Positions 2,572 to 39,410 of a stretch of 43,287 nucleotides of DNA are shown here, piece after piece. The position numbers were made by a program, and so were the translations under genes. Position 1 is the stretch's first letter, and every line of letters starts with the position of its first letter. The notes beneath the pieces were generated by a model. That model saw only the letters and a list, made by a program, of their open reading frames with translations, did not search any database and was not told the DNA's origin. This stretch comes from Candidatus Gastranaerophilales bacterium (GTDB lineage Bacteria > Cyanobacteriota > Vampirovibrionia > Gastranaerophilales > Gastranaerophilaceae), in assembly GCA_947589115.1 (NCBI GenBank), contig CANPZP010000009.1, positions 1 through 43,287 of the forward strand, written 5' to 3'.

Positions 2572-5187
2572 TTATACGACAGCCAGTCCGTGAAGTGTAT
2601 TTCTCATTAAATCATACGGATTTATTATAAGGCATATCTCACCCGACGGCAATGTTGTAATCCCGCTTATATTCCTTATTTTAAGTATGGGCGCCGATAA
2701 TTTCTTTTGAAATATTTCTTGCGACCCTATTAATTTATCCACAATAAATGCTGCATGCTCGCTTTGTAATTCAGTTATTATTACCGTTACATCTTCTTGT
2801 TTTAATGGTTCATCAGATTTATATCCGAATATTTCGGATAAATTATATACGGGAACAGGATTATCTTCAAAAATTATGTATTTTTGATTGTCTTTATTTA
2901 TTATTTCCCCCATATTAACTTGTTTTACATATTTTACCGCATTTATGGGTATTGCATACTTCTGGTCGTTTACACATATTATAAATGTCTTTAGTGTCGA
3001 CATTGATAAAGGAACTTTTATAGTAACTCTGCAGCCTTTATTCAATACTGAATCAACAGTTATATCACCATTCAGTCCGGCTATTTTCGTTTTGACGACA
3101 TCTAATCCTACTCCTCTTCCGGATATTTCCGTTACTGATTCTTTTGTTGAAAATCCGGGGAGAAATATTAATTTCATTAACTGCTCGTCAGTCAGATTTT
3201 TTATTTCTTCTTCCAATAAAATCCCTTTTTGAAGAGCAGTTTCTTTTACCTTATCAAGATTTATTCCGTATCCGTCATCTTCTATTACTATAACAACATT
3301 ATTCTCCGCTTGCTTTGCAGATAATCTTATTATACCTGTTTCTTTTTTATTATTTTTTATTCTGTCCTGAGGAGTTTCTATCCCGTGAGATATAGAATTT
3401 CTGATTATATGAATCAGAGGCATTTTTATTTCTTCTATAATTTTTTTATCAACGGTTGTATCACTCCCGGATATATATATATCTATTTTTTTATTATTTT
3501 CTTTTGCTATATCTCTTACCATTCTAGGAAATGAATGAAAAATTGCAGCAAGCGGTAATACCCTTATTCCTTTTGCTATTGATTCTATTTCCAATGCAGT
3601 TTGATGTAATTTATTATCATCTTCAGATATGTTTTTATATAAATCTGTAAAATCTTTATTTAAATCATTTATTATATCAAAATTTTCATTAAAAAAATTC
3701 AATATTTTTTTATAGAAAATATTAGCCATTTCATTATTATCCGAAAAAAAGCCTTTCTTTTCGTAGTATTTAATATAATTAAATATTTTTTTACTTTCAA
3801 TCTGCCATTTTACAAAATTATTGTTTAATAAAGATAAATCTACCAGATGTTCTCTGTTTTTTATACCGTTAATTAACAGTTCTCCGGTTCTTGATATTAA
3901 ATTGTCAAGCTTTGATATGTCTACTCTTAAAGTCTTTATTTCCTGTAAATCAAACGGAGTTAAATTCTTATTAAAATTATCATAATTTTCATTAGATACA
4001 ATAGTATTTTTTTCTTCAACTATAACTTCATTTTTACTGTCGTTAATATCAATATTTAACATATCCTCAACTAAATTTAAACGCTGAAGCAGAAAGCTTA
4101 AATTTTTACATTGCTCTTCATCCCCTTTATATATACCCCGAGCTAAGTATATACACTGCAATACTACCATATAACAATCATTGTCTATATTTATATCTTT
4201 TTTGATTAATAACTCCAGTATATTTACTGTCTTATTTATGACATTATCCGCTTTTTCATTTTCATTTTGTTCGGATATCTCAATTAATAACTCATTCAAT
4301 TCATAAATATATTTTTTTTCATATCTTATTTTAGGCAATATAGATAATACTTTTTCAAACTTAACATCAATATTAGCTGTTAAATTATTGGAATCTTTAA
4401 TATTTTCAGTATTTTCTTCTTTCTTGTTTTGAATTTCAACACTGTTATGACTTATTTCTTTATTAACTGAATATATTTTATTTCTTAATTCTGTTATTGC
4501 TTTTCTATAATACTCTAAATCATTTTCGGGATGTTCATCGGAATTAATAAGCAATAAAATTCCGGATATTTCATTTTTTATTTCCGAATAATTTGTATGT
4601 GAATAAATTTCATTAAGTCTTGTTAAATTATCAGCGGCAACGGACATAATTTCCTGAAATTCATCCTCTTGGGTTTCACGCTCCATAATAAACATTAACT
4701 CAAGTAATATGGCATTTACATCTATATTATTTATTTCTTTTTCATTTTGAACTTTATTGTGAGGCTCTTCAACCGGTACCATTCTGTTATATGTTAAAAA
4801 ATTATTTAATTTATTTACCGTTTCGATAACCTCATTACCATATGGATCCGAACCAATTTCCACTGTTTTTTGTATCAGATTTTGAACAAAGTCACATACA
4901 TCATAAATAAGTTGAAAAAAATTAATATTAATTTTTACATTATCATCTTTCCAATAAATAAGAATATCTTCAATTTTATGCGCAATGTCCTGAATACTTT
5001 TAAATCCGAGCATTCTTGCAGAACCTTTTAAAGAATGAGATAATTGCATCAGGCGCTTTAACGGCTCTTTATTTTCAGGGTTTTTTTCAAGTTCCAAAAA
5101 GCCGTCATTCAACCCTTGAATCATTTCTTCACTTTCAGTTTTAAAAATATTTAAAATTTCTTTATATTCTTCGGGATTGTATTCCAT
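2572..5187 (-). CDS. cheA: CheA-type chemosensory histidine kinase
   Basis: An 871-residue cytoplasmic kinase that reads out chemoreceptor arrays. The order is: HPt domain at about 1-110 with the phosphorylated His51 in LSHSLKGSA; a long helical region 150-400 without a recognisable CheY-binding P2 domain; the P3 dimerisation helices from about 418; the HATPase domain with N box HIIRNSISHGIE (593-604), G1 DDGYGI, the GFSTKE segment and G2 SGRGVGLDVV; and a C-terminal CheW-like domain from about 732. There is no C-terminal receiver domain. P3 is longer than usual (about 455-520 is extra). It follows the MCP gene by 11 nt with its own AGGA, so both form one operon. It probably signals to a type IV pilus or other surface motility system, since no flagellar genes are visible here. 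Confidence 0.93.
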   Translation of the reverse strand: MEYNPEEYKEILNIFKTESEEMIQGLNDGFLELEKNPENKEPLKRLMQLSHSLKGSARMLGFKSIQDIAHKIEDILIYWKDDNVKININFFQLIYDVCDFVQNLIQKTVEIGSDPYGNEVIETVNKLNNFLTYNRMVPVEEPHNKVQNEKEINNIDVNAILLELMFIMERETQEDEFQEIMSVAADNLTRLNEIYSHTNYSEIKNEISGILLLINSDEHPENDLEYYRKAITELRNKIYSVNKEISHNSVEIQNKKEENTENIKDSNNLTANIDVKFEKVLSILPKIRYEKKYIYELNELLIEISEQNENEKADNVINKTVNILELLIKKDINIDNDCYMVVLQCIYLARGIYKGDEEQCKNLSFLLQRLNLVEDMLNIDINDSKNEVIVEEKNTIVSNENYDNFNKNLTPFDLQEIKTLRVDISKLDNLISRTGELLINGIKNREHLVDLSLLNNNFVKWQIESKKIFNYIKYYEKKGFFSDNNEMANIFYKKILNFFNENFDIINDLNKDFTDLYKNISEDDNKLHQTALEIESIAKGIRVLPLAAIFHSFPRMVRDIAKENNKKIDIYISGSDTTVDKKIIEEIKMPLIHIIRNSISHGIETPQDRIKNNKKETGIIRLSAKQAENNVVIVIEDDGYGINLDKVKETALQKGILLEEEIKNLTDEQLMKLIFLPGFSTKESVTEISGRGVGLDVVKTKIAGLNGDITVDSVLNKGCRVTIKVPLSMSTLKTFIICVNDQKYAIPINAVKYVKQVNMGEIINKDNQKYIIFEDNPVPVYNLSEIFGYKSDEPLKQEDVTVIITELQSEHAAFIVDKLIGSQEIFQKKLSAPILKIRNISGITTLPSGEICLIINPYDLMRNTLHGLAVV

Positions 5188-5198
5188 TATTTTTCCTG

Positions 5199-6236
5199 TT
5201 AATTAACAATATTATCTTTAATATTTGTTGATAATTCTGAAAATATTCTTATGTTTTCTATATTTTCTTCCACTGTTTTTATGGATTCAGATATACCCTG
5301 CTGCATATTCTCAATTACTTCCAATACCTCATTAGTAATAGTTTGCTGGTCTATAGATGAAGTATGAATTTCTTCCAATTCTTCCGATAAATTTTTAATA
5401 TTGTTTACTAACAAAGAGAAATTATTATTAATTTCATCAACATTTCTTACATCAGATTCAACCTCTTTTGCGCCGTCCTCAGTGGCAACTATAGTTGAAG
5501 AGGTCGTTTGTTCTATTTCGGCAACCAGTGTCGTAATTTTTGTGGTAGCTTGTCTGGATTCATCAGCCAATTTTCTGATTTCACCCGCAACAACCGCAAA
5601 ACCTTTACCGTATTCACCTGCTCTTGCTGCTTCAACTGCTGCATTTAATGCTAACATGTTTGTCTGTTCCGAAATATTTTCAACTATACTTACGGTTGAA
5701 CCTATTTGCTTTACATAATCCGTTAATTCTATTATTAATTCCGCTATAATTTGTATCTTTTGTTTCAAATTCTGCATCGATACTATATTGTCATTTATCG
5801 ATTTTAATTCTTTGCCTGAAAAATCGTATGTTTCTTGTACTTTCGAACATATCATTTGTGTTTTTTCTTTTGATCTTATTGAATTATTTTTAAATGATTT
5901 TACCGACTGAACTACATTTTCCAACATGTCCATATAATTTTGTGTTATTTGACGATGTTTTTCACTCAATTGCAAAACTCTGCTTGATATCTTTTGAAAT
6001 TCTTTTAATTCATTATCGATTAATTTATCCATAGACCTTAATAAATCATTCTTTGATAATTGATATTGGATATAATACAATGCTAATACTACAAATTCCC
6101 ACATTAACATTGTTGTCTTATCTTCATTTATCATAATAATAGCTATAATAGCTATTGTTGCAGCACCTAAGAACAAAGTATCATATATATTTTTTGCTGC
6201 TAAACGATTGGTTAAACTCACATCTTTCCTTGGCAT
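5199..6236 (-). CDS. Methyl-accepting chemotaxis-like receptor without a periplasmic sensor domain
   Basis: A 345-residue receptor. Two hydrophobic segments (about 19-36 and 43-58) are joined by a loop of only a few residues, so no extracytoplasmic ligand domain exists. The rest is the long signalling coiled coil, with the conserved hairpin tip [20 protein letters not shown] (188-207) and [19 protein letters not shown] (210-228), which contacts CheA and CheW. No HAMP or PAS domain is evident. The start is fixed by AAAGGAG just upstream of the ATG. It is first in the operon with cheA and divergent from the double CheW gene. Input may come from a membrane state or a partner protein, as in PilJ-like or energy-sensing receptors; that is inference. 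Confidence 0.9.
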
Positions 6237-6326
6237 TTTTAACTCCTTTTAAAGTTAATTATAGTTCATATTTTTTATTTTATAATCATTAATTTATAGT
6301 ATAATATTATAAAGGTTTTATCTCTA

Positions 6327-7355
6327 ATGAACAACAATTATGAATTAATTTCGGATTCCGAAATAACAGAATCATATAAATATTACATCGTTTTCAATAT
6401 AAAAGATAAACGATATGCAATTAATATAAAAAATGTTGTTGAAATAATAAATCTTCCTGATATAGAAATATCAAAGAATATGCCTCAAAATATTATCGGG
6501 ATTTTTGATTATAACGGGCTAATGATTAAAGCTGTTGATTTAACAAGCTTATTAGGTGAAACACCAGAAAGTTTCTCGGTAGATGATAAATTAATTGTTC
6601 TGATTTCGGAAGGAGATTTTTTCGCAATCCATACTAAGTTTGTCGAAAATATTATTTCTTTTGATTCAAAGTTTATTCAGCCCGTGCCTTACAGTCTTGA
6701 AAATTCTTTGGTAAACTCCATTTTTAAATCGGATTCCGAATTTATTAATATTATTGATATTGCAAATTTAAATAAAATTATTTCCGAAGAAAATGCAAAA
6801 ATATCGGATTTTGATTATTCCGCACTATTTCCTGCGGATGATAAATCAAAAAAAATATTAAGTCTAAGAACACAGAAAAATAAACTTCCCAACTCGGGAT
6901 TTGCATTCCCCATGAACTTTAATATTAACAACCAATACATTCTTTTTACTCTTGATGATTTTAACTATTATCTTGATTTAAAATACGTAAAAGAATTTGT
7001 ATCATTAAAAAGGTTAAATATAACCAAACTTCCTTATACACAAGATTACATAAGAGGAATTATTAATATCAGAGGGGATTTTTTGGTAGTTGTTGATTTA
7101 AAAAAATTTTTTAACAAAGACACAAATTCAGACTCAAACAAATTGATTATAGCGGAAAGTAAAGATTTTAATATTGCATTCATAGTCGATGATATAAAAT
7201 ATATTAAAACTTTAAAGAATATTCAAAAAACATATTCGGATAAACCCATCTCACCTTACATATACGCTGAATTTACGGAAAACAATAAAATATCCTCCAT
7301 TATTAATTTTGAAAAAATTATTAATGACGAAAAGTTATATATAAATATAAGTTAA
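6327..7355 (+). CDS. Tandem CheW-domain coupling protein
   Basis: A 342-residue cytoplasmic scaffold that links receptors to CheA. It contains two CheW folds in tandem. The first is about residues 17-155 (YYIVFNIKDKRYAINIKNVVEII opens the typical beta barrel). The second is about 200-335 (YILFTLDDFNYYLDLKYVKEFV, then RGIINIRGDFLVVVDL, the conserved CheW core). No receiver domain follows, so it is not CheV. The start ATG has AAGG 11 nt upstream and a TATAAT at 6300-6305. It is transcribed away from the MCP-cheA operon, sharing an about 90-bp divergent control region. The stop overlaps the convergent proS stop by four bases. The doubled domain may bridge or cap receptor-kinase rings. Confidence 0.88.
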   Translation: MNNNYELISDSEITESYKYYIVFNIKDKRYAINIKNVVEIINLPDIEISKNMPQNIIGIFDYNGLMIKAVDLTSLLGETPESFSVDDKLIVLISEGDFFAIHTKFVENIISFDSKFIQPVPYSLENSLVNSIFKSDSEFINIIDIANLNKIISEENAKISDFDYSALFPADDKSKKILSLRTQKNKLPNSGFAFPMNFNINNQYILFTLDDFNYYLDLKYVKEFVSLKRLNITKLPYTQDYIRGIINIRGDFLVVVDLKKFFNKDTNSDSNKLIIAESKDFNIAFIVDDIKYIKTLKNIQKTYSDKPISPYIYAEFTENNKISSIINFEKIINDEKLYINIS

Positions 7356-9164: not shown

Positions 9165-10172
9165 TTATACTACACCCGTTTCTTCATTTATACTTTGGAT
9201 ATCCTGAAGCGAGGAAGGAAGCACCTGCTCAAATACATCAACAACTATAGGGTCAAATTGCTTTCCCGCAAGTTCTTTAATATTATTTAAAGCCTGTAAC
9301 GGTGAAATTTGTTTTCTGTATATTTTAGGTGTCACCATGGAATCAAAAGCATCCGCAACCGCTATAATTCTTGAGCCGATTGGTATTTCATCACCTTTTT
9401 TACCATACGGATAACCGTTTCCGTCATAAAATTCATGATGATACTTGATTATTTCCACTACTTCTTTTAATTGTTTTATATCGTCCAATATTTTAATACT
9501 ATGATGGACATGCTGTTTAATTTGAGAAAACTCTTCAGGAGTTAAAGTTTCAACTTTAGCAAGTATATCATCCTTAACACCTATCATCCCTATATCATGC
9601 AAAAGTCCTGCCAACTCAATTTTACCCGTGGTTATAGGACTTAAATGCAGAGCTTTAGCTATTCTCAAAGAATAAAAAGTTACTCTTTTACTTCTGCCGA
9701 GCGTATATTTATCCTTTGAATCCAGTGCTTCAACAATTGCTGTAATTGTTCCCGCTAAAAGCTCTTTTAAATCATTTACCAATGCACTGTTATCCGTTTT
9801 TAACTGCCAATACTCAAGTGCATTTTCTACCGTAAGTGTTAATTCATCAGGGCTGTAAGGTTTTTTTATGTATCTGTATATTTTTGCATAGTTTATGGCA
9901 TCAATTAATATACCTGCATCCGAATATGCAGTGACTAACAATCTCATACAATCCGGAGAAATTTCACAACAGCGTTTTAAAAACTCAACACCGTCCATTT
10001 CCGGCATCTTATGGTCAGATAATATACAGTTAAACTTTTCACTTTTTAATATATCTAACGCAGCCAACGGTGAAGTGGATTTTACTATATCATACTTACC
10101 TCGTAATGTACGATACAGTAACGCAAGGTTATCCGGTTCATCATCCACTATTAAAATCTTGTATTTATCCAT
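9165..10172 (-). CDS. Response regulator with HD-GYP output domain (RpfG-like)
   Basis: A 335-residue receiver-phosphodiesterase fusion. The receiver (1-120) has the acidic pair Asp10/Asp11, the phospho-acceptor Asp53 in LSDHKMPEMDG and the conserved Lys104 in YIKKPYSPDE. The HD-GYP domain (about 140-330) has HDIGMIG (His192, Asp193), HHEFYDGNGYP (245-255) with an intact GYP signature, and the following AVADAFDSM. Members of this family hydrolyse cyclic di-GMP. The ATG lies inside the end of the upstream kinase gene (8-base overlap) with a GGAGGA sequence in the kinase's last codons, so the pair is translationally coupled. The kinase at 10165-11796 is the likely phosphate donor. Confidence 0.93.
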   Translation of the reverse strand: MDKYKILIVDDEPDNLALLYRTLRGKYDIVKSTSPLAALDILKSEKFNCILSDHKMPEMDGVEFLKRCCEISPDCMRLLVTAYSDAGILIDAINYAKIYRYIKKPYSPDELTLTVENALEYWQLKTDNSALVNDLKELLAGTITAIVEALDSKDKYTLGRSKRVTFYSLRIAKALHLSPITTGKIELAGLLHDIGMIGVKDDILAKVETLTPEEFSQIKQHVHHSIKILDDIKQLKEVVEIIKYHHEFYDGNGYPYGKKGDEIPIGSRIIAVADAFDSMVTPKIYRKQISPLQALNNIKELAGKQFDPIVVDVFEQVLPSSLQDIQSINEETGVV

Positions 10173-11796
10173 TATTTCCTCCGGCTACAAGATTTGTATT
10201 TAAGCTTTCCCTGTCTATAGTTAAAGGCAGTGTTATTATAAATTTTGTACCTTCATTTTTCTTAGATTCAACTCTTATATCACCTTGATGATTTTTTATG
10301 ATTTTATAAGTGATAGACATCCCCAAACCTGTCCCTTGTCCGACGGGTTTAGTTGTAAAGAACGGATTAAATACTTTTCTTGCGGTTTCTTCATCCATTC
10401 CCATTCCGTTATCTTCTATTTCTATAATGAATTTTTTTGCTGCTTCATCCGGCTTCAATCTAATCCAAATATCCCCTTTATCTTCTATCGCACCTGCCGC
10501 ATTATCAAGTATATTCATAAATACTTGGTTTAATTGTCCGCCGAAAGCTTCTATCCTCGGTAAATCATTGGGATATTCTTTATGAATTTCAGCTTTATTT
10601 TTTAATTTATTGTGCAATATATTTAATGTCATATCCATCTCATGCGCAATATCCACATAAGTTATAGCAACTTCTTCCATTCTTGAAAAACTCTTTAAAT
10701 CCTGAATTATATTTTTTGCCCGTTCCGCACCTTCTTTACAACTCTTTATCAAATCAGGCATATCGGACTTTAAAAATTCGTAATCTATTTCTTCTTTTTT
10801 CTTATCTATTTCTGATTTTTCTTCCGGTTTAAGCGAACCGTCATACGAAGTGTACTGTTCAATAATATCCATCAAATCAGAAGAATAATTTCCCAAGTGA
10901 GTCATATTACCATATATAAAGTTTATGGGGTTATTAATTTCATGCATAATCCCCGCAACCAGCTCGCCTAAAGACTTCATTTTTTCGGAATGCACCATCA
11001 TTGCCTGAGTATTTTGAAGCTCGGCATAAGCATTTTTTAATTCTTTTGTTCTGTCCTGTACTTTTACCTCCAATGATGAATATAATCTTTGAAGCGCATT
11101 CGTCATCATATTAAATGAACTTATTAATTCATTTATTTCATTATACTTTGTATTATCAAGTCTTACCGATAAATCACCTTTTGCAACTTGTGATACCGTT
11201 TTTTGCATTTTTAATAACGGTTTTGAAATACTCCTTGCCAATATATATGATACGCAAAGGCACAATAAAAGTATTATTCCGAAGAATACCATCATATTAT
11301 CAGCAACTTGTTTATATAAAATTCCGGATTCATTAGGTACAAGTAAATATACATTACTGTTGAACTTATTAATATATACTATTTTATAATTACTGAAATT
11401 TGCATTTTTTAATTTAAAAGTTGATAAATTATCAGGAATTGAATATATATATTCCGTTCCTTTCGGAAGAGTCGAATACAATTCATTACCCGACGAATCT
11501 GTTACCACTATATGTTTAATTTTTAAATCGTCCATCAGAATTTCATTCAAATGTTCTTTGATTTGAGAATAATTTTTTGTATACAAATCAATATTAAACG
11601 TTTTTATATTGTTAACAAATTCAGAAGAAATATTTTTATCTATATCTCTTATACTATCTCTTGTATAAACATACATAAAAGACTCAAATACACCCACCAT
11701 TAACACAATCGTAAGCATAACGGTAATCATTATTGTGTTATTTATTCCGAAGGATATTTTAACACTTCTTTTACTTTTCTTTTTTTTCTTACCCAC
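10165..11796 (-). CDS. Membrane sensor histidine kinase
   Basis: A 543-residue two-component sensor. The order is: a very basic N-terminal tail, membrane helix 1 (about 22-44), an extracytoplasmic sensor of about 120 residues, membrane helix 2 (about 166-187), HAMP (190-240), a coiled coil, HisKA with GELVAGIMHEINNP carrying His285, and HATPase with the N box region QVFMNILDNAAGAIED, EDNGMGMDEE and GTGLGMS. The HEINNP form of the H box is that of the HPK4 (NtrB/ZraS-like) class. The start is a GTG with AGGA 8 nt upstream; no ATG fits better. The gene overlaps and is coupled to the HD-GYP regulator, so the pair probably converts an envelope signal into changes of cyclic di-GMP. Confidence 0.92.
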   Translation of the reverse strand: MGKKKKKSKRSVKISFGINNTIMITVMLTIVLMVGVFESFMYVYTRDSIRDIDKNISSEFVNNIKTFNIDLYTKNYSQIKEHLNEILMDDLKIKHIVVTDSSGNELYSTLPKGTEYIYSIPDNLSTFKLKNANFSNYKIVYINKFNSNVYLLVPNESGILYKQVADNMMVFFGIILLLCLCVSYILARSISKPLLKMQKTVSQVAKGDLSVRLDNTKYNEINELISSFNMMTNALQRLYSSLEVKVQDRTKELKNAYAELQNTQAMMVHSEKMKSLGELVAGIMHEINNPINFIYGNMTHLGNYSSDLMDIIEQYTSYDGSLKPEEKSEIDKKKEEIDYEFLKSDMPDLIKSCKEGAERAKNIIQDLKSFSRMEEVAITYVDIAHEMDMTLNILHNKLKNKAEIHKEYPNDLPRIEAFGGQLNQVFMNILDNAAGAIEDKGDIWIRLKPDEAAKKFIIEIEDNGMGMDEETARKVFNPFFTTKPVGQGTGLGMSITYKIIKNHQGDIRVESKKNEGTKFIITLPLTIDRESLNTNLVAGGNNG

Positions 11797-19588: not shown

Positions 19589-20971
19589 TTAATTTAAAAA
19601 TTTACTTAAATCCGTTTTATCAAATACTTCTATTCTTGACTGGCTGTGAACAAATATAATGCAGGAGATAAGAGGTTTAAACATTTCAAAATCGCTGTAT
19701 GAAAGTTTTTTGTTTAAGTCTGCCATATTATCAGCCAAGAACTCCGTTATAAGAATTTTATTTTTAAAAATAAGCGAACTGAAATAATCAAGTGCATTTT
19801 TAGACGTAATACCTTCAAAATAAATAATATCAGGAGATTGAAATTCAATGAATCTCATAACTTTATCCATATTAAACCCGATATTTTCATTTAATTCACA
19901 CTGATTAATATTATCAAGATTGTATTTTGCTATTGATTCAATAGTCATAATATTTTTATTTTCTTTAGGAAGGTCATTTAAAAGAGAATAAATAATATGG
20001 GTTTTACCGGCTAAAGAAGCACCGCAGACAAGCGTTATTCCGGGAGTACTTAAAGAATAGCGTATTGTATTAATTTGATTTTCACTTAAACCTATTTCAT
20101 TTAATTTTTTTGGAGGTTTATATATTTTTAAAGATATTCTTTCTCCGTTAATTGTGGGGAAAGCCGAAATACTTGCCGTAAGGGTTAAATCTTCCGCTTT
20201 AAAAACTAATTTCCCCAATTGAGGCAGTTCGCATACATTTGCATCCAAAGAAGAAAGTGTTTTTAATTTTGACAAAAACGGAACTACTAATACGGAAGGT
20301 ATTTGACCCGTATTTATTATTTCGTTTCCCTGTCTGAAATTAACACTTAAGCCGTTTGGTACATGTTCAAAAAATAGCTCATGTACTCCGTTTGTTATTG
20401 CCTGTTTTAATATTGCTCTTATTAATATTTGTATATGCTCATCGGAAAGTACGTCATTATTGAGTTCTTCCTGCCAATCTAATTTATTTTCATTTTCATC
20501 AATATTAATCTGCCCGACAGAATTTTCATTATGATAGTATTCTTCAATCTTTTCTAAAACAAGTGATTCCGCACAAACCACAGGTTCAATATCACAGCCG
20601 GTTTTCTCAACTATTTTATCAATCGCAAATAAATCCAAAGGATCAGCCATTGCAACAGTTAATACATTCTCTATTTTAAACAACGGAATTATTTTGTATT
20701 TTTGCGCATCAATATAATTTATGTATGACAGGCAAGATTTATCAAGTGTGTAATCTTTTAAATCAACATAGGGGATATGAAGTTTATTTTCCAAAAACTT
20801 TAATAAAACTTCTTCGCTAATTAAATTTGATTTAATTAGAATAGTTCCGATATTAACATTTTGAGAATCGGCAAGTTCATGCGCTTTTTCAATATCATCA
20901 TAGCTTACCAGCCCATCTCTTACCAAATCGTATTTTAATTTTTCCAGTGTTTTATTTGTTACTCGTTCCAT
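19589..20971 (-). CDS. PilB/GspE-like protein with MshEN domain and degraded ATPase site
   Basis: A 460-residue relative of secretion and pilus-assembly ATPases. Residues about 14-145 form an MshEN-type domain (NIGTILIKSNLISEEVLLKFL), a fold that binds cyclic di-GMP in MshE. The C-terminal half matches the GspE core, but key parts are lost. Walker A is unusual yet possible (GASLAGKT, 317-324). The Arg-rich RRLPQDGR region reads CELPQLGK. Walker B is DIIYFEGI with Glu displaced. The His-box Thr-Leu-His is replaced by TEFLAD. The zinc-binding tetracysteine is absent. It is third in an operon behind a kinase and a receiver (3 nt after the receiver stop, TTAGGA as ribosome site). Probably a regulatory or structural partner of the pilus motor rather than a motor itself. 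Confidence 0.82.
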   Translation of the reverse strand: MERVTNKTLEKLKYDLVRDGLVSYDDIEKAHELADSQNVNIGTILIKSNLISEEVLLKFLENKLHIPYVDLKDYTLDKSCLSYINYIDAQKYKIIPLFKIENVLTVAMADPLDLFAIDKIVEKTGCDIEPVVCAESLVLEKIEEYYHNENSVGQINIDENENKLDWQEELNNDVLSDEHIQILIRAILKQAITNGVHELFFEHVPNGLSVNFRQGNEIINTGQIPSVLVVPFLSKLKTLSSLDANVCELPQLGKLVFKAEDLTLTASISAFPTINGERISLKIYKPPKKLNEIGLSENQINTIRYSLSTPGITLVCGASLAGKTHIIYSLLNDLPKENKNIMTIESIAKYNLDNINQCELNENIGFNMDKVMRFIEFQSPDIIYFEGITSKNALDYFSSLIFKNKILITEFLADNMADLNKKLSYSDFEMFKPLISCIIFVHSQSRIEVFDKTDLSKFLN

Positions 20972-20974
20972 TAA

Positions 20975-21337
20975 TTATCCTAAGTATTTTTTTACTTTCT
21001 CAACAACAAAATCAACATTAAACGGTTTTGTAATATATTCATCGGCTCCGGTTTCTTCCCCTATTATTTTATCCTCTTCTTGGGAACGAGCCGTTATCAT
21101 TAATATAGGAATATCTTTATATTTATTATCATATTTTAAAAGTCTGCTTATTTTATATCCGTTTATTTTAGGCATCATAACATCAAGTATAATTAAGTCA
21201 GGATTAGCTTCTCTTGCTAATTTTAAACCGGCCTCGCCGTCCATTGCCGTAATACATTCGTATCCGTTTGACTCCAATACGAATTGAAGTATCTCTATTA
21301 TATCCGCTTCATCATCAACTATTAATATTTTTTTCAT
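20975..21337 (-). CDS. Single-domain response regulator (receiver only)
   Basis: A 120-residue CheY-like or PilH-like receiver with no output domain. It has the acidic pair and phospho-acceptor of the fold (LIVDDEADI; ILDVMMPKINGY with the accepting Asp at about 52), the switch Thr in MITARS, and the Lys in ITKPFN. All residues for phosphotransfer are present. The ATG at 21337 is preferred to the GTG one codon upstream because GAGG is then 6 nt away. Its start overlaps the end of the kinase gene by 23 bases, so they are coupled. The kinase at 21315-23399 is the likely donor. The protein may act by binding a partner, perhaps the MshEN/ATPase-like protein encoded next. Confidence 0.92.
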   Translation of the reverse strand: MKKILIVDDEADIIEILQFVLESNGYECITAMDGEAGLKLAREANPDLIILDVMMPKINGYKISRLLKYDNKYKDIPILMITARSQEEDKIIGEETGADEYITKPFNVDFVVEKVKKYLG

Positions 21338-23399
21338 CACTATCCTCTTTTGAAAAAATACTTACTTTTTTTAACAGTTCATCGGCTGTTTGTGCATCTC
21401 TCGGATACAATGCCGCTGAATAAACTATATCACATTCTTCATATCCTGTAGCATTTGCTTTTATATATCCGTCTACTTTTCTTACTTCAAAATCAAATAC
21501 AAACGAATCTACATCCACACTGTATACATAATAATATCTTTTGTTATCTTCCGTATAACTATATTCTTTATATACGGTATTTTTTCTTATAACATCATCC
21601 GATATAATTTTATCCGTAAAAGATTTTCCATCAACTATATTTTCCCTGAATGCACATAACGAAACATTTAATCTGTCTTGTTTTGCTTTTTGTATATCCT
21701 GCTCCAGAGATAATTTAAAAATTTCTTTTTCACTCATTAAAGGAATAGCCAAATAAAATACGGAGCCTTTATTTATTTCACTGTTAAGCCAAATAAAACC
21801 TTTATGAGCATCCATTAACCGCTTTGCTATTGGCAGCCCCAAACCGGAACCGCCTACTTTTCTGCTTAATGAGTTTTCTATTTGTTTAAACTGCTCGAAA
21901 ACCTTATTCCAATTCTCTTTTGCAATTCCTATCCCGTTATCTTTTACCGCTATTTGTATATATTCATCACTCATTTCAGACGGCAGACTATCAAAAAACG
22001 GATTCTCTCTTATATCCTCTTTACTTATTTTTTTGCTTGTTATTTCTATTTTACCGTTCTCTTTTGTAAATTTTATTGCATTTGATATAAGATTTGTTAA
22101 TACCTGCTCCATTCTTTGTGTATCTACATACACCATCCCTAAATTATTATCTAATTGGGATTCAATTGTAATATTTTGCTCTTTTGCAAGATTTTCCAAC
22201 GTATTTTTTACCAATTCAACAGTCAAATTAATATTAGCCTTCTCAAAACGAAATTCCATTTTCCCTGCTTCTATCCTTGATAAATCCAATAAATCATATA
22301 TAATTGCAGATAATCTCGTAACATTTCGTTTTGCTAAATTTAAAAACTTTTCCATGGCATCATTTACTTCACCCGTTGTCCCCTTTAGTATTATATCTAA
22401 TGCACTGTTTATTGACGTTAACGGTGTTCTTAATTCATGCGACACGATGGAAATAAATTCGGATTTTAATCGTTCCAATTTCTCTAACTTTATATTGGTA
22501 TCCTTTATTTCTTCATACAAAATTGCGCTTTCCAAAGGCAGTGATACTTGTTTTACCAAGGTTGAAAAACATTTTGTATCATCGGGTACAAAATCCTGCT
22601 CTCTGAATACTTCTATTATTCCGTAAAATTTATTCTTTATATTTACGGGGGCAAATAAATTATCATAACCTAATATATTTAAATCATGCTCACCATAATT
22701 ATCTTTATTATGCTTTACTATTTTTATGTCATCTATTAAAGGATTTATGGAAAACAAATTTTTAAAATTTAATAATGCCCTTAATTTTATTGCATTTTCC
22801 AATCTTTGAGATACGGGAAATATTGATTTAATTATTAATTGTATATCATTTACTTCATTTAGTATCAGTGCATAGCACAAAGATAATGATAAACTTTGCT
22901 CTAATCCGTCAGTCATAATATTGATTAAATTTGTTTTATCCAAAGAACCGGCAAGCTGAGTACTCGTATTATATAAGACGTTTAATTGATATAAACTTTT
23001 TGCAAGTTCATTATTATTCTTTGATAACGTTTTAAAGGTTTCATATAAATTTAAATTTGTATTTATACATGACATAAATAATTGTTCATTTATAGGTCGT
23101 GTTACATATGAATTAACATATTTTAAAATATCATAATTAATATTTTTTTCCGGCAATAATACAACGGTTCGTATGTCTTTTGTCTGAATAAGCAATTTAT
23201 ATTTTCTTATAATACTTACTATGTCTAAGTTTATAGATTCCGAATCAAAAATAAATAAAGGAATGTTGTCACTGTTTATATAGCTTTCAATTTCATCTTC
23301 ATCAGATAAACATATCATTTCAAAAGAAAATTTTGAAATAACGGACTTTAAATCCTTTTCGGTATTGGCATTATCTGAAACAAGAATAAATTTAGTCAT
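21315..23399 (-). CDS. Multi-domain histidine kinase with pseudo-receiver, GAF and GGDEF-like tail
   Basis: A soluble 694-residue kinase. The N-terminal 110 residues have a receiver-like fold with decayed chemistry (ILVSDN for the acidic pocket, FIFDSES at the Asp position, TRP in place of TKP). A GAF-like domain follows (about 145-295). HisKA carries His321 in SIVSHELRTPL. HATPase has NLISNAIKFT, DNGIGI and GGSGLGLPIA, so the kinase core looks active. Residues about 560-685 resemble a GGDEF domain in its outer parts (LEQDIQKAKQDRLNVSL at the start, VYSAALYPRDAQTADELLK at the end), but the GG[DE]EF active loop is missing. TTAGG lies before the ATG. It heads an operon with a receiver and a PilB-like protein. 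Confidence 0.88.
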   Translation of the reverse strand: MTKFILVSDNANTEKDLKSVISKFSFEMICLSDEDEIESYINSDNIPLFIFDSESINLDIVSIIRKYKLLIQTKDIRTVVLLPEKNINYDILKYVNSYVTRPINEQLFMSCINTNLNLYETFKTLSKNNNELAKSLYQLNVLYNTSTQLAGSLDKTNLINIMTDGLEQSLSLSLCYALILNEVNDIQLIIKSIFPVSQRLENAIKLRALLNFKNLFSINPLIDDIKIVKHNKDNYGEHDLNILGYDNLFAPVNIKNKFYGIIEVFREQDFVPDDTKCFSTLVKQVSLPLESAILYEEIKDTNIKLEKLERLKSEFISIVSHELRTPLTSINSALDIILKGTTGEVNDAMEKFLNLAKRNVTRLSAIIYDLLDLSRIEAGKMEFRFEKANINLTVELVKNTLENLAKEQNITIESQLDNNLGMVYVDTQRMEQVLTNLISNAIKFTKENGKIEITSKKISKEDIRENPFFDSLPSEMSDEYIQIAVKDNGIGIAKENWNKVFEQFKQIENSLSRKVGGSGLGLPIAKRLMDAHKGFIWLNSEINKGSVFYLAIPLMSEKEIFKLSLEQDIQKAKQDRLNVSLCAFRENIVDGKSFTDKIISDDVIRKNTVYKEYSYTEDNKRYYYVYSVDVDSFVFDFEVRKVDGYIKANATGYEECDIVYSAALYPRDAQTADELLKKVSIFSKEDSDEKNINS

Positions 23400-31132: not shown

Positions 31133-33034
31133 ATGCCTGTAAAAAATTTTAATAAATTAAAAAATAATTCTGTTGAACAAGCTGAAAATCTGCTTTCTGA
31201 AGCAATTAATTTTTATGGTAATAACAATTATAAACATGCAGTCAATAAATTATCACAAGCTCATAAAATATTTCTCGCACACAAAAATATTTCAAAAGTA
31301 TCAGTATGTTTATCCTTAACTGGATTAATAAAATACTTAAATAAATCTGAGGGTTATTATAAATCGCTCTTACTGCTTGAAGATTCCAAATTTTTGGCTG
31401 AAAGCTGCAAAGATAAAGTTGCAGCCGGGGTTAATAAATTTTCATTCGGTCAAATATTTTATATTGAAAATAAATACAACGAATGTATATATTATTTATC
31501 ATGCTGTCTGGATGCTTTAAATCAATACCCGCTCTTAAAAGTTAAATCTTTGGAATTATTAGCATTAACTTATATAAGAGTTCAAAATATAAAAATGGCA
31601 TTAACATATTTAGAACAGGCAATAGTACTGGCAAAAGAATATGAATTTAAACTAATATATGATGAATTAAAAGAAATATCAAAAAATTATATAAATTCAA
31701 ATTCCACACTACAACAAGCATTAATATACAGAGATAAAAATAAAAAAAATAAAGAGCAGGACACAACCTTATTACTTGCACTGTCCACAATAGCAAGAAC
31801 CGTTAATGCCGAAGCTAATATAGACAAACTTTTAATTACAATAGCGGAACAAACAAGATTAGTATTAAATGCGGACAGGTGCAGTGTATTCTTATATGAT
31901 AAAGCCAAAAATGAATTATGGTCAAAAGTAGCACTCGGTATGAAAAGCGAAGAAATCAGATTTTCTGCGGATAAAGGTTTTGCCGGATATGCCGTTAAAA
32001 CCGGTGAAACTTTAAGAATTAAAGACGTTTATAAAGATGAACGTTTCAATAAAGAAATTGATAAACATACCGGCTATAAAACATACAATCTTTTATGCAT
32101 GCCCATAAGGAACATAAAATTTGAAATAATAGGTGCATTTCAGGTTTTAAATAAGAAAAACGGTGATTTCACGGTTGATGACGAAAATATTTTATTGGCA
32201 ATAGGAACAAATGCAGGCATTGCTATAGAGAATAACTTATTATTCAATATTCAGCAAAGAATGCTCGAAGAGCAGAAAAAACTGTTTGAAGGACTTATTG
32301 ATACATTAGCAGCTTCAATAGATGCAAGAGATAAAATAACATTAGGTCATTCTAACCGTGTAAAATTATATTCAGAATTAATATGCGGTAAACTTGGATT
32401 AAATAAAGATATTACAAATATTATTTCAAAAGCCGCAATGCTTCATGATATAGGAAAAATCGGTATAAGGGACAGTGTACTCCAAAAAAAAGGCAAATTA
32501 ACCGAAGAAGAATATGAACATATCAAAGAGCATGTAAAAATAACCTATGATATATTATGTAAAACCAATATTAATGACTCGTTTTCCGAGATTACCGAAA
32601 TAGCATCATCACACCATGAAAGATATGACGGAAAAGGATATTTCAGACAATTAAAAGGAGAAGAAATTCCGTTAGGAGGAAGAATACTTGCAATAAGTGA
32701 TGTTTTTGATGCCATTACCTCAGTTCGTCACTATCGTGACAGAATGCCGATTGATTCTGCGCTTAAAATCATTTATGAAGGTAAAAATACTCATTTTGAC
32801 GGTAAAATTGTTGACTCCTTTTTTGAAATACCTTTAGATGTTATTACCGATATTCTTATTTCGGAATACAATCTTAAACTAAATGAAACCGACAGAAAAA
32901 TTCTCAATTCATGCAGTTTAAATGAATTTTATAATATGCTGGCAAAGAATAACAATACACCAAAAGAAAAAAAGATTATTAATATATTTAATTCATATTA
33001 TATAAGAGAAGTAAATAAAGAATATCAAGGATAA
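31133..33034 (+). CDS. TPR-GAF-HD-GYP signalling protein
   Basis: A 633-residue soluble protein. Residues about 10-200 are helical repeats of TPR type (YKHAVNKLSQAHKIF; MALTYLEQAIVLAKEY). A GAF domain follows (about 215-370, RCSVFLYDKAKNELWSKVA and a helix ending AIENNLLF). The HD-GYP domain spans about 390-570 with HDIGKIG (His438, Asp439) and HHERYDGKGYF (494-504), where the final Pro of GYP is Phe. The metal ligands appear kept, so phosphodiesterase activity is still likely. The C-terminal 60 residues are extra. AAAGGA precedes the ATG and TATAAT is at 31096-31101. A NarL-type regulator follows by 4 nt, so it is an operon. No receiver or kinase domain is present. Confidence 0.9.
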   Translation: MPVKNFNKLKNNSVEQAENLLSEAINFYGNNNYKHAVNKLSQAHKIFLAHKNISKVSVCLSLTGLIKYLNKSEGYYKSLLLLEDSKFLAESCKDKVAAGVNKFSFGQIFYIENKYNECIYYLSCCLDALNQYPLLKVKSLELLALTYIRVQNIKMALTYLEQAIVLAKEYEFKLIYDELKEISKNYINSNSTLQQALIYRDKNKKNKEQDTTLLLALSTIARTVNAEANIDKLLITIAEQTRLVLNADRCSVFLYDKAKNELWSKVALGMKSEEIRFSADKGFAGYAVKTGETLRIKDVYKDERFNKEIDKHTGYKTYNLLCMPIRNIKFEIIGAFQVLNKKNGDFTVDDENILLAIGTNAGIAIENNLLFNIQQRMLEEQKKLFEGLIDTLAASIDARDKITLGHSNRVKLYSELICGKLGLNKDITNIISKAAMLHDIGKIGIRDSVLQKKGKLTEEEYEHIKEHVKITYDILCKTNINDSFSEITEIASSHHERYDGKGYFRQLKGEEIPLGGRILAISDVFDAITSVRHYRDRMPIDSALKIIYEGKNTHFDGKIVDSFFEIPLDVITDILISEYNLKLNETDRKILNSCSLNEFYNMLAKNNNTPKEKKIINIFNSYYIREVNKEYQG

Positions 33035-37308: not shown

Positions 37309-38298
37309 ATGAATAAAAATATTAAAAAAATTTTAATAATAAGAACGGGAGCAATAGGAGATGTAGTTCATACAACGGCATTATACCGTGCCATTAAAAA
37401 AAATAATCCCGATATACTTATCCACTATATGACAAGTGAACTTATTTCCCCTTTACTAACTAATGACCCTGATATTTCTAAAGTTATAAATATTAATCCG
37501 AAATTTAAACTATTTTCTTCTTATGCAATAAATCTGGCAAAACTTTTAAAATCGGAAAAATATGATGCGGTAATAAATTTACAACCCTCACTAAAAATTA
37601 ATGCATTAATATTTTTAGCGGGAATAAAAAATAAATGTAATTATAAGAAAAGATTTAAAGTTCATGCGGTAACTAATTTTTGGCAGACAGGATTAAAATT
37701 TTTTCCTGAACTAAAAGAAGAAAAAGAATTAAAATTATATTTACCGAAAGAAAAAACTGAAGAAGCAAAAACATTTTTAAACAATTATAAACGGCCTATA
37801 ATAATAATAAATGCAGGCGGAGTACTGTCAAAAAGGCAAGGCAGAACATATCCCGCAGATAAATGGCTTGAACTCGGAAATAAAATTCAGGAAAAAGTCC
37901 AAGGAACAATAATATTAAACGGTATTAACGAGGATAAAGAAATCCTTTCTCCGTTAAATAATATTAAAAATTCCGTAAATTTAATCGGAAAACAATCACT
38001 GATTGAATCTTGTTCTGTAATTTCTCAAGCGGATTTATTGATATCGGGAGATTCAGGCCCTTTACATATAGCTTCAGCTTTAAATGTAAAGACTATCGGA
38101 TTATATGGTTCAATGCCGGCCAAAAGAACAGGAATATATTCCGGAGGACATAATATCGTATCCCATAAAAAATGCGTGCCTTGTAACAAAAGAAAATGCA
38201 AATATATCTATAATACAAACAAACTTTATGCGCCTTGTATGGAAGAGATTTCAGTTGATGATATTTTGAATATTATATTTGAGGATTTAAAAAGATGA
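37309..38298 (+). CDS. GT9-family heptosyltransferase-like glycosyltransferase
   Basis: A 329-residue enzyme of the ADP-heptose:LPS heptosyltransferase family, which builds the lipopolysaccharide inner core or a related glycan. The opening ILIIRTGAIGDVVHTTAL is the family start. The C-terminal nucleotide-binding half has SGDSGPLHIASALNVKTIGLYG and a Cys-rich CVPCNKRKC segment typical of many GT9 members. The acceptor-side Asp in the GDVV segment is present. There is no Shine-Dalgarno, and TATTAT ends 6 nt before the ATG (37297-37302). A second -10-like TATTAT with TTAACA at 18 bp lies just upstream. Its last codons overlap the pectate lyase start by 4 bases, so the two are coupled. Confidence 0.91.
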   Translation: MNKNIKKILIIRTGAIGDVVHTTALYRAIKKNNPDILIHYMTSELISPLLTNDPDISKVININPKFKLFSSYAINLAKLLKSEKYDAVINLQPSLKINALIFLAGIKNKCNYKKRFKVHAVTNFWQTGLKFFPELKEEKELKLYLPKEKTEEAKTFLNNYKRPIIIINAGGVLSKRQGRTYPADKWLELGNKIQEKVQGTIILNGINEDKEILSPLNNIKNSVNLIGKQSLIESCSVISQADLLISGDSGPLHIASALNVKTIGLYGSMPAKRTGIYSGGHNIVSHKKCVPCNKRKCKYIYNTNKLYAPCMEEISVDDILNIIFEDLKR

Positions 38299-39410
38299 TT
38301 AAATTATATAAAATCACTTCTTTGTTAATTGTAATAACAATAATAATCTGCACAACAAATATGATATACAATCATAAAAAATATAATTCAATATATCAAA
38401 TGAAATGGACAAAAGCAGCAAAAGAATTTGATAATAATTTTTTTAAAACACCCGAGGCAGTTAGAATAGGAAATAATTTACTTTTATTTCAAAAAACAAG
38501 CGGAGGGTGGCCTAAAAATACAAGGATGCAAGATAAAATTCCGCCTGAAATAGTTCCTCAGGTTATGTATACAAAAGATTATGTTTCTTTATCAACCGTA
38601 GATAATGATGCAACCACAACAGAAATAAGATACTTAGCAAGACTATATAATGTAAAAAAAGATAAAAAATATAAACAAGCGGTTATATCAGGGATTAATT
38701 ATCTTTTACAAGCTCAATATAAAGACTCCGGAGGATTTCCTCAATACTATCCTGCTGACTATAATGATTATCATTTGGATATAACATTTAATGACAATGC
38801 AATAATTAATATATTAAAAATTATGCAGGAAATAACAAAGAAAAAATATCCTTTTAATTTTTTGGATGATACCATTGTTAAAAAAGCCAAAATTGCTCTT
38901 GATAAGGGAATAGACTGCATTTTAAAGACTCAGATTATACAAAACGGTGAGTTAACCGGATGGTGCGGTCAATATGATTCTTTAGGATTATTCCCTTTAG
39001 AAGGCAGAGCTTATGAACCTATTGCCATATACAGTAAAGAATCGGCAAACATACTTTTATTTCTTATGTCTTTAAAAAATCCTTCTCCGGAAATTATAAA
39101 TGCAATAGAAAACGGTGTAGCCTGGTTTGAAAAATCAAAAATAACCGGTAAAAAATTAACCGTTATCTCAAATGTAAAAGGTGAAAAGGATATAACAGTC
39201 ACACAATGCGAAGAATGCCCTCCCATATGGGCAAGGTTTTATGATATAGATTCCAATCAGCCTATATTTTCTGACAGAACAAATAAAATATACAATAAAC
39301 TTGAAGATATAGACTACGAAAGAAGAAATAATTATGACTGGTATTTCTTAGACGGAGATAAAGTTTTTGAAAAATATAAAAAATGGAAAAAGAATAAAAA
39401 AAGAAATTAA
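38295..39410 (+). CDS. Pectate lyase family 10 (PL10)
   Basis: Cuts polygalacturonate by beta-elimination. A 371-residue protein with an N-terminal hydrophobic signal-anchor (about 5-24), so it is exported or tethered; the Cys after it lacks a good lipobox. Family blocks are in order: QKTSGGWPKNTRM, DNDATTTEIRYLARLY, AQYKDSGGFPQYYPA, ITFNDNAIINILKIM, GWCGQYD, GRAYEPIAIYSKESA and the PPIWARFYDIDSNQPIFSDR stretch. The GRAYEP block holds the Arg used as base in PL10, and the acidic calcium-site residues are in the ATTTE and FNDNA blocks. It overlaps the GT9 gene by 4 bases. Tethered pectinase in a small-genome gut bacterium suggests dietary pectin use or envelope polymer trimming. Confidence 0.88.
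   Translation: MIKLYKITSLLIVITIIICTTNMIYNHKKYNSIYQMKWTKAAKEFDNNFFKTPEAVRIGNNLLLFQKTSGGWPKNTRMQDKIPPEIVPQVMYTKDYVSLSTVDNDATTTEIRYLARLYNVKKDKKYKQAVISGINYLLQAQYKDSGGFPQYYPADYNDYHLDITFNDNAIINILKIMQEITKKKYPFNFLDDTIVKKAKIALDKGIDCILKTQIIQNGELTGWCGQYDSLGLFPLEGRAYEPIAIYSKESANILLFLMSLKNPSPEIINAIENGVAWFEKSKITGKKLTVISNVKGEKDITVTQCEECPPIWARFYDIDSNQPIFSDRTNKIYNKLEDIDYERRNNYDWYFLDGDKVFEKYKKWKKNKKRN

Follow-up and report, generated by a model that had tools for sequence, protein, structure and literature searches.

Three minus-strand genes in a 43,287-nucleotide stretch of DNA from Candidatus Gastranaerophilales bacterium (the window; contig 9 of a 1.82 Mb assembly) encode a histidine kinase, a lone receiver and a relative of the pilus extension ATPase PilB that has lost most of its catalytic motifs, which we call pseudo-PilB. 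Named relatives with up to 86% protein identity also place the source genome in this order. The trio is co-inherited in several families of the order Gastranaerophilales, and the ratios of nonsynonymous to synonymous substitution rates (dN/dS) of its members indicate that it is functional, with pseudo-PilB under strong purifying selection. We tentatively favour, at somewhat less than an even chance, a phosphorelay whose output is a pseudo-PilB that is blind to cyclic di-GMP and docks on the pilus assembly motor. An initial annotation, made from the sequence of the window, had drawn attention to the trio; its observation is confirmed and its interpretation is in part supported.

A conserved three-gene unit

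The open reading frames of the initial annotation and their spacing, a 23-base overlap followed by a 3-nucleotide gap, are borne out by the open-frame coordinates (Table 1). The overlap of the kinase and receiver genes is 23 bases when the receiver is read from its ATG (21337) and 26 bases from an upstream GTG, with which the open frame spans 20975-21340 on the minus strand; three bases separate the receiver stop codon from the ATG of pseudo-PilB (20971).

In related genomes the three genes are contiguous and in the same order in 65 of the 78 loci with enough upstream sequence to be testable, which are drawn from several Gastranaerophilales families and are not all independent. The arrangement is therefore not due to chance, and the view of the trio as a single unit gains support from this co-inheritance. 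The receiver lies beside pseudo-PilB in 73 of the 78 loci, whereas the flanking genes vary: PilT and S15 are near the trio only in the source genome, and MutS2 and HU only in one other. The proposed tie to the nearby pilT does not survive this comparison, as the adjacency is peculiar to the source genome among the loci compared, and PilT was rejected as a partner. PilB, PilC, PilQ, PilP and PilT were sought near the trio in all loci and none was found besides the PilT of the window; prepilin-like genes occur near some loci, too sporadically to count. In other loci (e.g. L074 and L110) an inserted gene separates the kinase from the receiver. A prepilin-like gene lies between these two on the opposite strand in L074 (3535-4290) and L098 (4516-5229). 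In family f3 (L104, L115 and L118) pseudo-PilB has been relocated to a site immediately upstream of atpD-atpC, which encode the beta and epsilon subunits of the F1 ATPase; both of the other genes, for the kinase and the receiver, are retained side by side elsewhere.

All 58 genomes of a first sample gave matches to pseudo-PilB, several of them (e.g. the class relative G057) through a full-length PilB alone. With a profile of 30 family members, a short PilB-like protein was found in 190 of 289 genomes of the class at an E value of 1e-50 or better; among the matches listed all fall in Gastranaerophilales, and the genomes listed from other orders have none. A search at 1e-10 in 16 genomes of the class from other orders returned only full-length PilBs, in frames of at least 538 aa. 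The PilB model was also run against a sample of the phylum; among the matches listed, no short form running from ND0 to RecA was evident outside the order, not every short frame having been inspected. No orthologue of the kinase was found in four genomes of the class from other orders, which gave kinase-core matches only.

Comparison of species within a genus gives dN/dS values of ∼0.07 for pseudo-PilB, ∼0.03 for the receiver and 0.04-0.10 for the kinase core; dS is high, so that the values are rough. The low values point to strong purifying selection on pseudo-PilB, and it is because of them that we regard the unit as functional.

Ancestry and lost motifs of pseudo-PilB

Pseudo-PilB is homologous to PilB across ND0, ND1, ND2 and most of the RecA core, and the PilB fold (ND2 and the RecA core) and common ancestry are evident in several comparisons. 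The window protein scores 95.8 bits on Pfam T2SSE, which is above the gathering threshold, and 65.9 bits on MshEN. Its closest relative in the PDB is a PilB (4.6e-45), its closest NCBIfam relatives are also PilBs, and Foldseek returns GspE and PilB down to 3e-23, with 4pht as the best fold match. The family forms one clade with 100/100 support, apart from all of the PilBs sampled from the phylum, in a tree that is unrooted as to origin (pseudo-PilB has a long stem, and PilT is too far removed to serve as an outgroup). On the NCBIfam model TIGR02538 pseudo-PilB scores 180.5 bits against a cut-off of 675.65 and covers the profile to about position 390 of 564; ∼170 C-terminal profile positions are absent. 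The true PilB of the source genome, with 531.8 bits, is likewise under the cut-off, and the missing C-terminus and motifs therefore carry more weight. This true PilB (L124, 2143-4371) has ∼170 extra N-terminal residues ahead of its MshEN domain.

The Asp box, the GE(I/L/M/V)RD Walker B motif and the His box are each present in 0/96 distinct pseudo-PilB sequences, and the C-terminal part is missing throughout this family; the PilB of the source genome has all three motifs. Walker A is kept in 92 of the 96, the exceptions being three f6 sequences and one f4 sequence. In the f6 loci without it (L116, L117 and L119) the kinase tail is reduced or gone and the operon is intact. Conserved substitutes stand in place of lost motifs, namely ESIxK for EDPVE and, in Walker B, an invariant Glu one residue ahead of the usual place, and the altered catalytic site is therefore itself constrained. 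Judged by its motifs, the core is selectively dead rather than simply damaged, pseudo-PilB is almost surely not a working ATPase, and in most lineages it would bind ATP without turnover. The dead ATPase of the initial annotation agrees with these counts; its description of a damaged PilB/GspE core holds for the Asp box, Walker B, the His box and the C-terminus and fails for Walker A, which is intact. Conservation within the family is highest in MshEN_C, the counterpart of the N-terminal subdomain of GspE that contacts GspL, and the C-terminal half is less conserved.

The cyclic di-GMP site of MshE consists of two motifs, RLGxx(L)(V/I)xxG...LxxxLxxQ, and mutation of the motif-I Gly abolished binding (PMC5013675). 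This essential Gly is Lys in 94 of the 96 pseudo-PilBs. At the position of the first Arg, motif I has Lys and motif II mostly Asn, and neither motif keeps its closing Gln. A relaxed form of the motif is absent from the window protein; among the 96 sequences one copy is found in 41 and two copies in none. On the NCBIfam motif model NF053729, which has its cut-off at 38 bits, pseudo-PilB scores 26 bits and the true PilB passes with 45.4 bits. Cyclic di-GMP sensing by this MshEN domain, as first proposed, is not supported in view of the Gly-to-Lys change and the failed model, and the RxxD site is also lost from the kinase tail in the window lineage. Given the Gly, Arg and Gln losses and the model scores, the division of labour is probably the reverse of that first suggested: the true PilB reads cyclic di-GMP and the paralogue does not. 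The PilBs of Xanthomonas and Pseudomonas are also without the motif, and the N-terminal domain of the Xanthomonas protein binds PilZ (PMC8389850); the loss of the motif therefore fits a role in protein docking.

The kinase and the receiver

The kinase is soluble and consists of a receiver-like domain, a middle region, a HisKA-HATPase_c core and a GGDEF-fold tail, in this order. The N-terminal domain, which was overlooked initially, matches Response_reg with 31.8-44.8 bits in three homologues; D52 is kept in 70 of 75 homologues and the acidic pair is lost. Pfam scans of the window kinase and its homologues gave no GAF or PAS match in the middle region. The HisKA and HATPase_c matches are clear in the window kinase, His321 is present in 75 of 75 homologues and SHELRTP is nearly invariant across them, which identifies a histidine kinase and bears out the active-looking core that had been described.

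The AlphaFold2 model of the tail has a pLDDT (predicted local distance difference test) of 87.6, and its top structural matches with Foldseek and VIA-align 2 are GGDEF domains. In VIA-align 2 the leading rows are all GGDEF, and the match to 6khu has a Z score of 13.7 and a root-mean-square deviation of 2.9 Å over 120 residues. The window tail has no match in Pfam; four of 37 homologous tails match Pfam GGDEF by sequence (best E value 1.7e-4). The GG(D/E)EF active site was sought in the 37 aligned tails and is absent in all, so that none has the active site of a diguanylate cyclase, and the RxxD I-site is gone in the window lineage and kept in just three distant homologues. With dN/dS of 0.17-0.44 against the window the tail is the loosest part of the unit, and the alignment of kinase homologues shows it to be wholly absent in several lineages. 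The GGDEF-like tail of the initial annotation is thus confirmed as a fold, for which the word 'decayed' is apt.

The lone receiver retains the DD pair, the Asp of LDVMMP, and the T and K residues, and has no output domain. It is therefore a single-domain response regulator with the complete residue set expected of the phosphorylatable receiver noted earlier. Elsewhere in the window (2572-7355) a CheA (Hpt-HATPase-CheW), a methyl-accepting protein and a protein with two CheW domains are grouped, possibly as a chemosensory system.

Table 1. Features of the three-gene unit in the window
Feature	Position	Strand	Details
Histidine kinase	21315-23399	-	694 aa; Pfam HisKA and HATPase_c; orthologues in every family sampled
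Degenerate receiver-like domain	23055..23399	-	Kinase residues 1-115; Response_reg in three homologues; D52 in 70/75
HisKA-HATPase_c core	21738..22466	-	Kinase residues 312-554; phospho-acceptor His321
GGDEF-fold tail	21318..21737	-	AlphaFold2 model, Foldseek, VIA; no GGDEF motif, no RxxD I-site
Single-domain receiver	20975-21337	-	From ATG; phospho-acceptor Asp52; Response_reg 100 bits; dN/dS ∼0.03
Pseudo-PilB	19589-20971	-	460 aa; ND0/MshEN_N, ND1/MshEN_C, ND2, RecA core; C-terminal part missing; from Pfam T2SSE and MshEN, PDB, Foldseek
MshEN_N/ND0 four-helix part	20780..20971	-	Both cyclic di-GMP motifs altered (comparison with PMC5013675)
MshEN_C/ND1	20525..20779	-	Best-conserved part of the family; 60% mean pairwise identity
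Walker A GASLAGKT	20000-20023	-	Intact in window pseudo-PilB

Possible output and comparison with known systems

In the reading that we tentatively favour, the soluble kinase would autophosphorylate and hand the phosphate to the adjoining receiver, as the intact residues and the conserved adjacency suggest. The receiver, phosphorylated or unphosphorylated, may then bind pseudo-PilB, the product of the next gene in the operon. Pseudo-PilB retains the half with which PilB docks (ND0/ND1 and ND2) and, in most cases, the loop that binds ATP; from its motif losses we predict that it can no longer hydrolyse ATP or sense cyclic di-GMP. It might compete with PilB, cap the PilB hexamer or co-assemble into it at the pilus platform, and pilus extension would thereby follow the kinase signal, separately from a cyclic di-GMP input that the true PilB can apparently still read. 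Action on pilus extension through the kept docking surfaces is plausible: in the GspE-GspL and PilB-PilZ complexes the partners dock on the N-terminal domains (PMC8389850). The contiguity of the trio, the retention of the kinase-receiver pair in f3, the single clade, the low dN/dS, the motif losses, the conservation of MshEN_C and the pilus genes of the source genome (PilB, PilC, a secretin and PilT) all argue for the proposal. Several points weigh against it. The link to pili is its weakest step, as genes for a pilus motor or platform are not consistently found beside the trio, and co-occurrence with pili is uninformative because pilus motors occur throughout the class. The loss of Walker A in f6 and in one f4 sequence means that ATP binding is not needed everywhere. 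The pairing of the trio kinase with the trio receiver is assumed, and the CheA of the window is a second candidate kinase for the receiver. That pseudo-PilB is a phosphorylation-gated poison subunit, which enters or caps the PilB hexamer and halts pilus extension, seems doubtful; if true, it would apparently be the first pseudo-ATPase paralogue governing a type IV pilus motor, fixed order-wide.

Pseudo-PilB might instead serve the kinase and receiver as a scaffold or localiser, with an output other than pilus extension, such as the organisation of the cell pole or another envelope machine. This is possible, if on the unlikely side: conserved pilus neighbours are absent from the loci searched, the C-terminal half is less conserved, the trio persists where some families have lost Walker A, and pseudo-PilB lies beside atpD in f3, but conservation within the protein is highest in the docking domains inherited from PilB, for which the simplest explanation is that PilB partners have been kept. 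It is improbable that the MshEN domain binds cyclic di-GMP and that the trio integrates it with phosphorylation, as the initial annotation proposed. The MshEN fold is present, the genomes encode several GGDEF proteins, motif II has changed less than motif I, one relaxed motif survives in 41 of the 96 and RxxD is kept in the tails of three distant kinase homologues; however, the residue whose mutation ended binding in MshE is changed in 94 of the 96, the closing Gln is lost from both motifs, the motif model stays under its cut-off and two motifs never occur.

Glu386, which is invariant (96/96) and lies one residue ahead of the usual Walker B Glu, could, with a Walker A kept in 92/96, be taken to assume the catalytic role and make pseudo-PilB an unusual active ATPase. 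We consider this very improbable, as the Asp and His boxes are absent in all, the C-terminal part is missing, and f6 has lost Walker A yet keeps Glu386. The loss of every catalytic motif save Walker A might also suggest a decaying, functionless remnant of a former PilB, but the frame is intact in nearly every genome of the order and the operon is conserved; decay is hardly credible and was rejected on the dN/dS of ∼0.07.

Three further loci of the window are recorded here. At 9165-11796 the genes for a HAMP histidine kinase and a receiver-HD-GYP protein overlap, probably a kinase/cyclic di-GMP phosphodiesterase pair; a second HD-GYP-type protein (31133-33034), with a GAF domain, adjoins a LuxR-type regulator; and a pectic acid lyase (Pfam Pec_lyase, 326 bits) lies at 38295-39410.

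Pseudo-PilB shares its ND0-ND1 (MshEN), ND2 and RecA fold and its Walker A with PilB, MshE and GspE, the extension ATPases of type II secretion systems and type IV pili. In contrast to these it lacks the Asp box, the catalytic Walker B, the His box, the C-terminus and the cyclic di-GMP motif, and it is encoded in a kinase-receiver operon. As proposed for the trio, TadZ/CpaE-type pilus localisers steer a pilus machine by a degenerate receiver-like domain, with an ATPase family and gene set unrelated to the trio, and pseudo-enzymes are common as regulators in other systems. The literature searched gave no paper on a pseudo-ATPase PilB, and that on MshEN with receivers, degenerate GGDEF with histidine kinases and Gastranaerophilales pili gave no description of this gene set; neither these papers nor the family libraries describe a catalytically dead PilB paralogue as a signalling output. 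If the favoured phosphorelay is real, two-component signalling would reach the pilus motor directly, bypassing cyclic di-GMP. The trio is a small, concrete and testable gene set in an order of gut and environmental non-photosynthetic cyanobacterial relatives whose cell biology is little known, and it gives a reason against annotating pseudo-PilB as PilB or as a type II secretion ATPase.

In the Xanthomonas PilB-PilZ-FimX system, much as proposed for the trio, proteins whose receiver and GGDEF domains are degenerate control the extension motor by way of its N-terminal domain (PMC8389850). Unlike the trio kinase, FimX is not a kinase, has an EAL domain and binds cyclic di-GMP; the trio has a PilB paralogue as an added player and is without PilZ or EAL. 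CpiA of Acinetobacter baylyi (PMC8213720) is a separate protein that restrains PilB, the role proposed for pseudo-PilB, but it is not homologous to PilB, and it is regulated at the level of transcription rather than by phosphorylation. PilG and PilH of the Pil-Chp system are CheY-like lone receivers that act on pilus motors, as proposed for the trio receiver, although they are driven by a CheA-type kinase, have no PilB paralogue as partner and have not been reported to contact PilB directly (PMC11656802). FimX-PilZ-PilB, CpiA and PilG/PilH are the nearest working analogies, and none has a PilB paralogue as the response element. The parts of the trio thus all come from known families, and what is new is the module: a two-component system with a new output protein.

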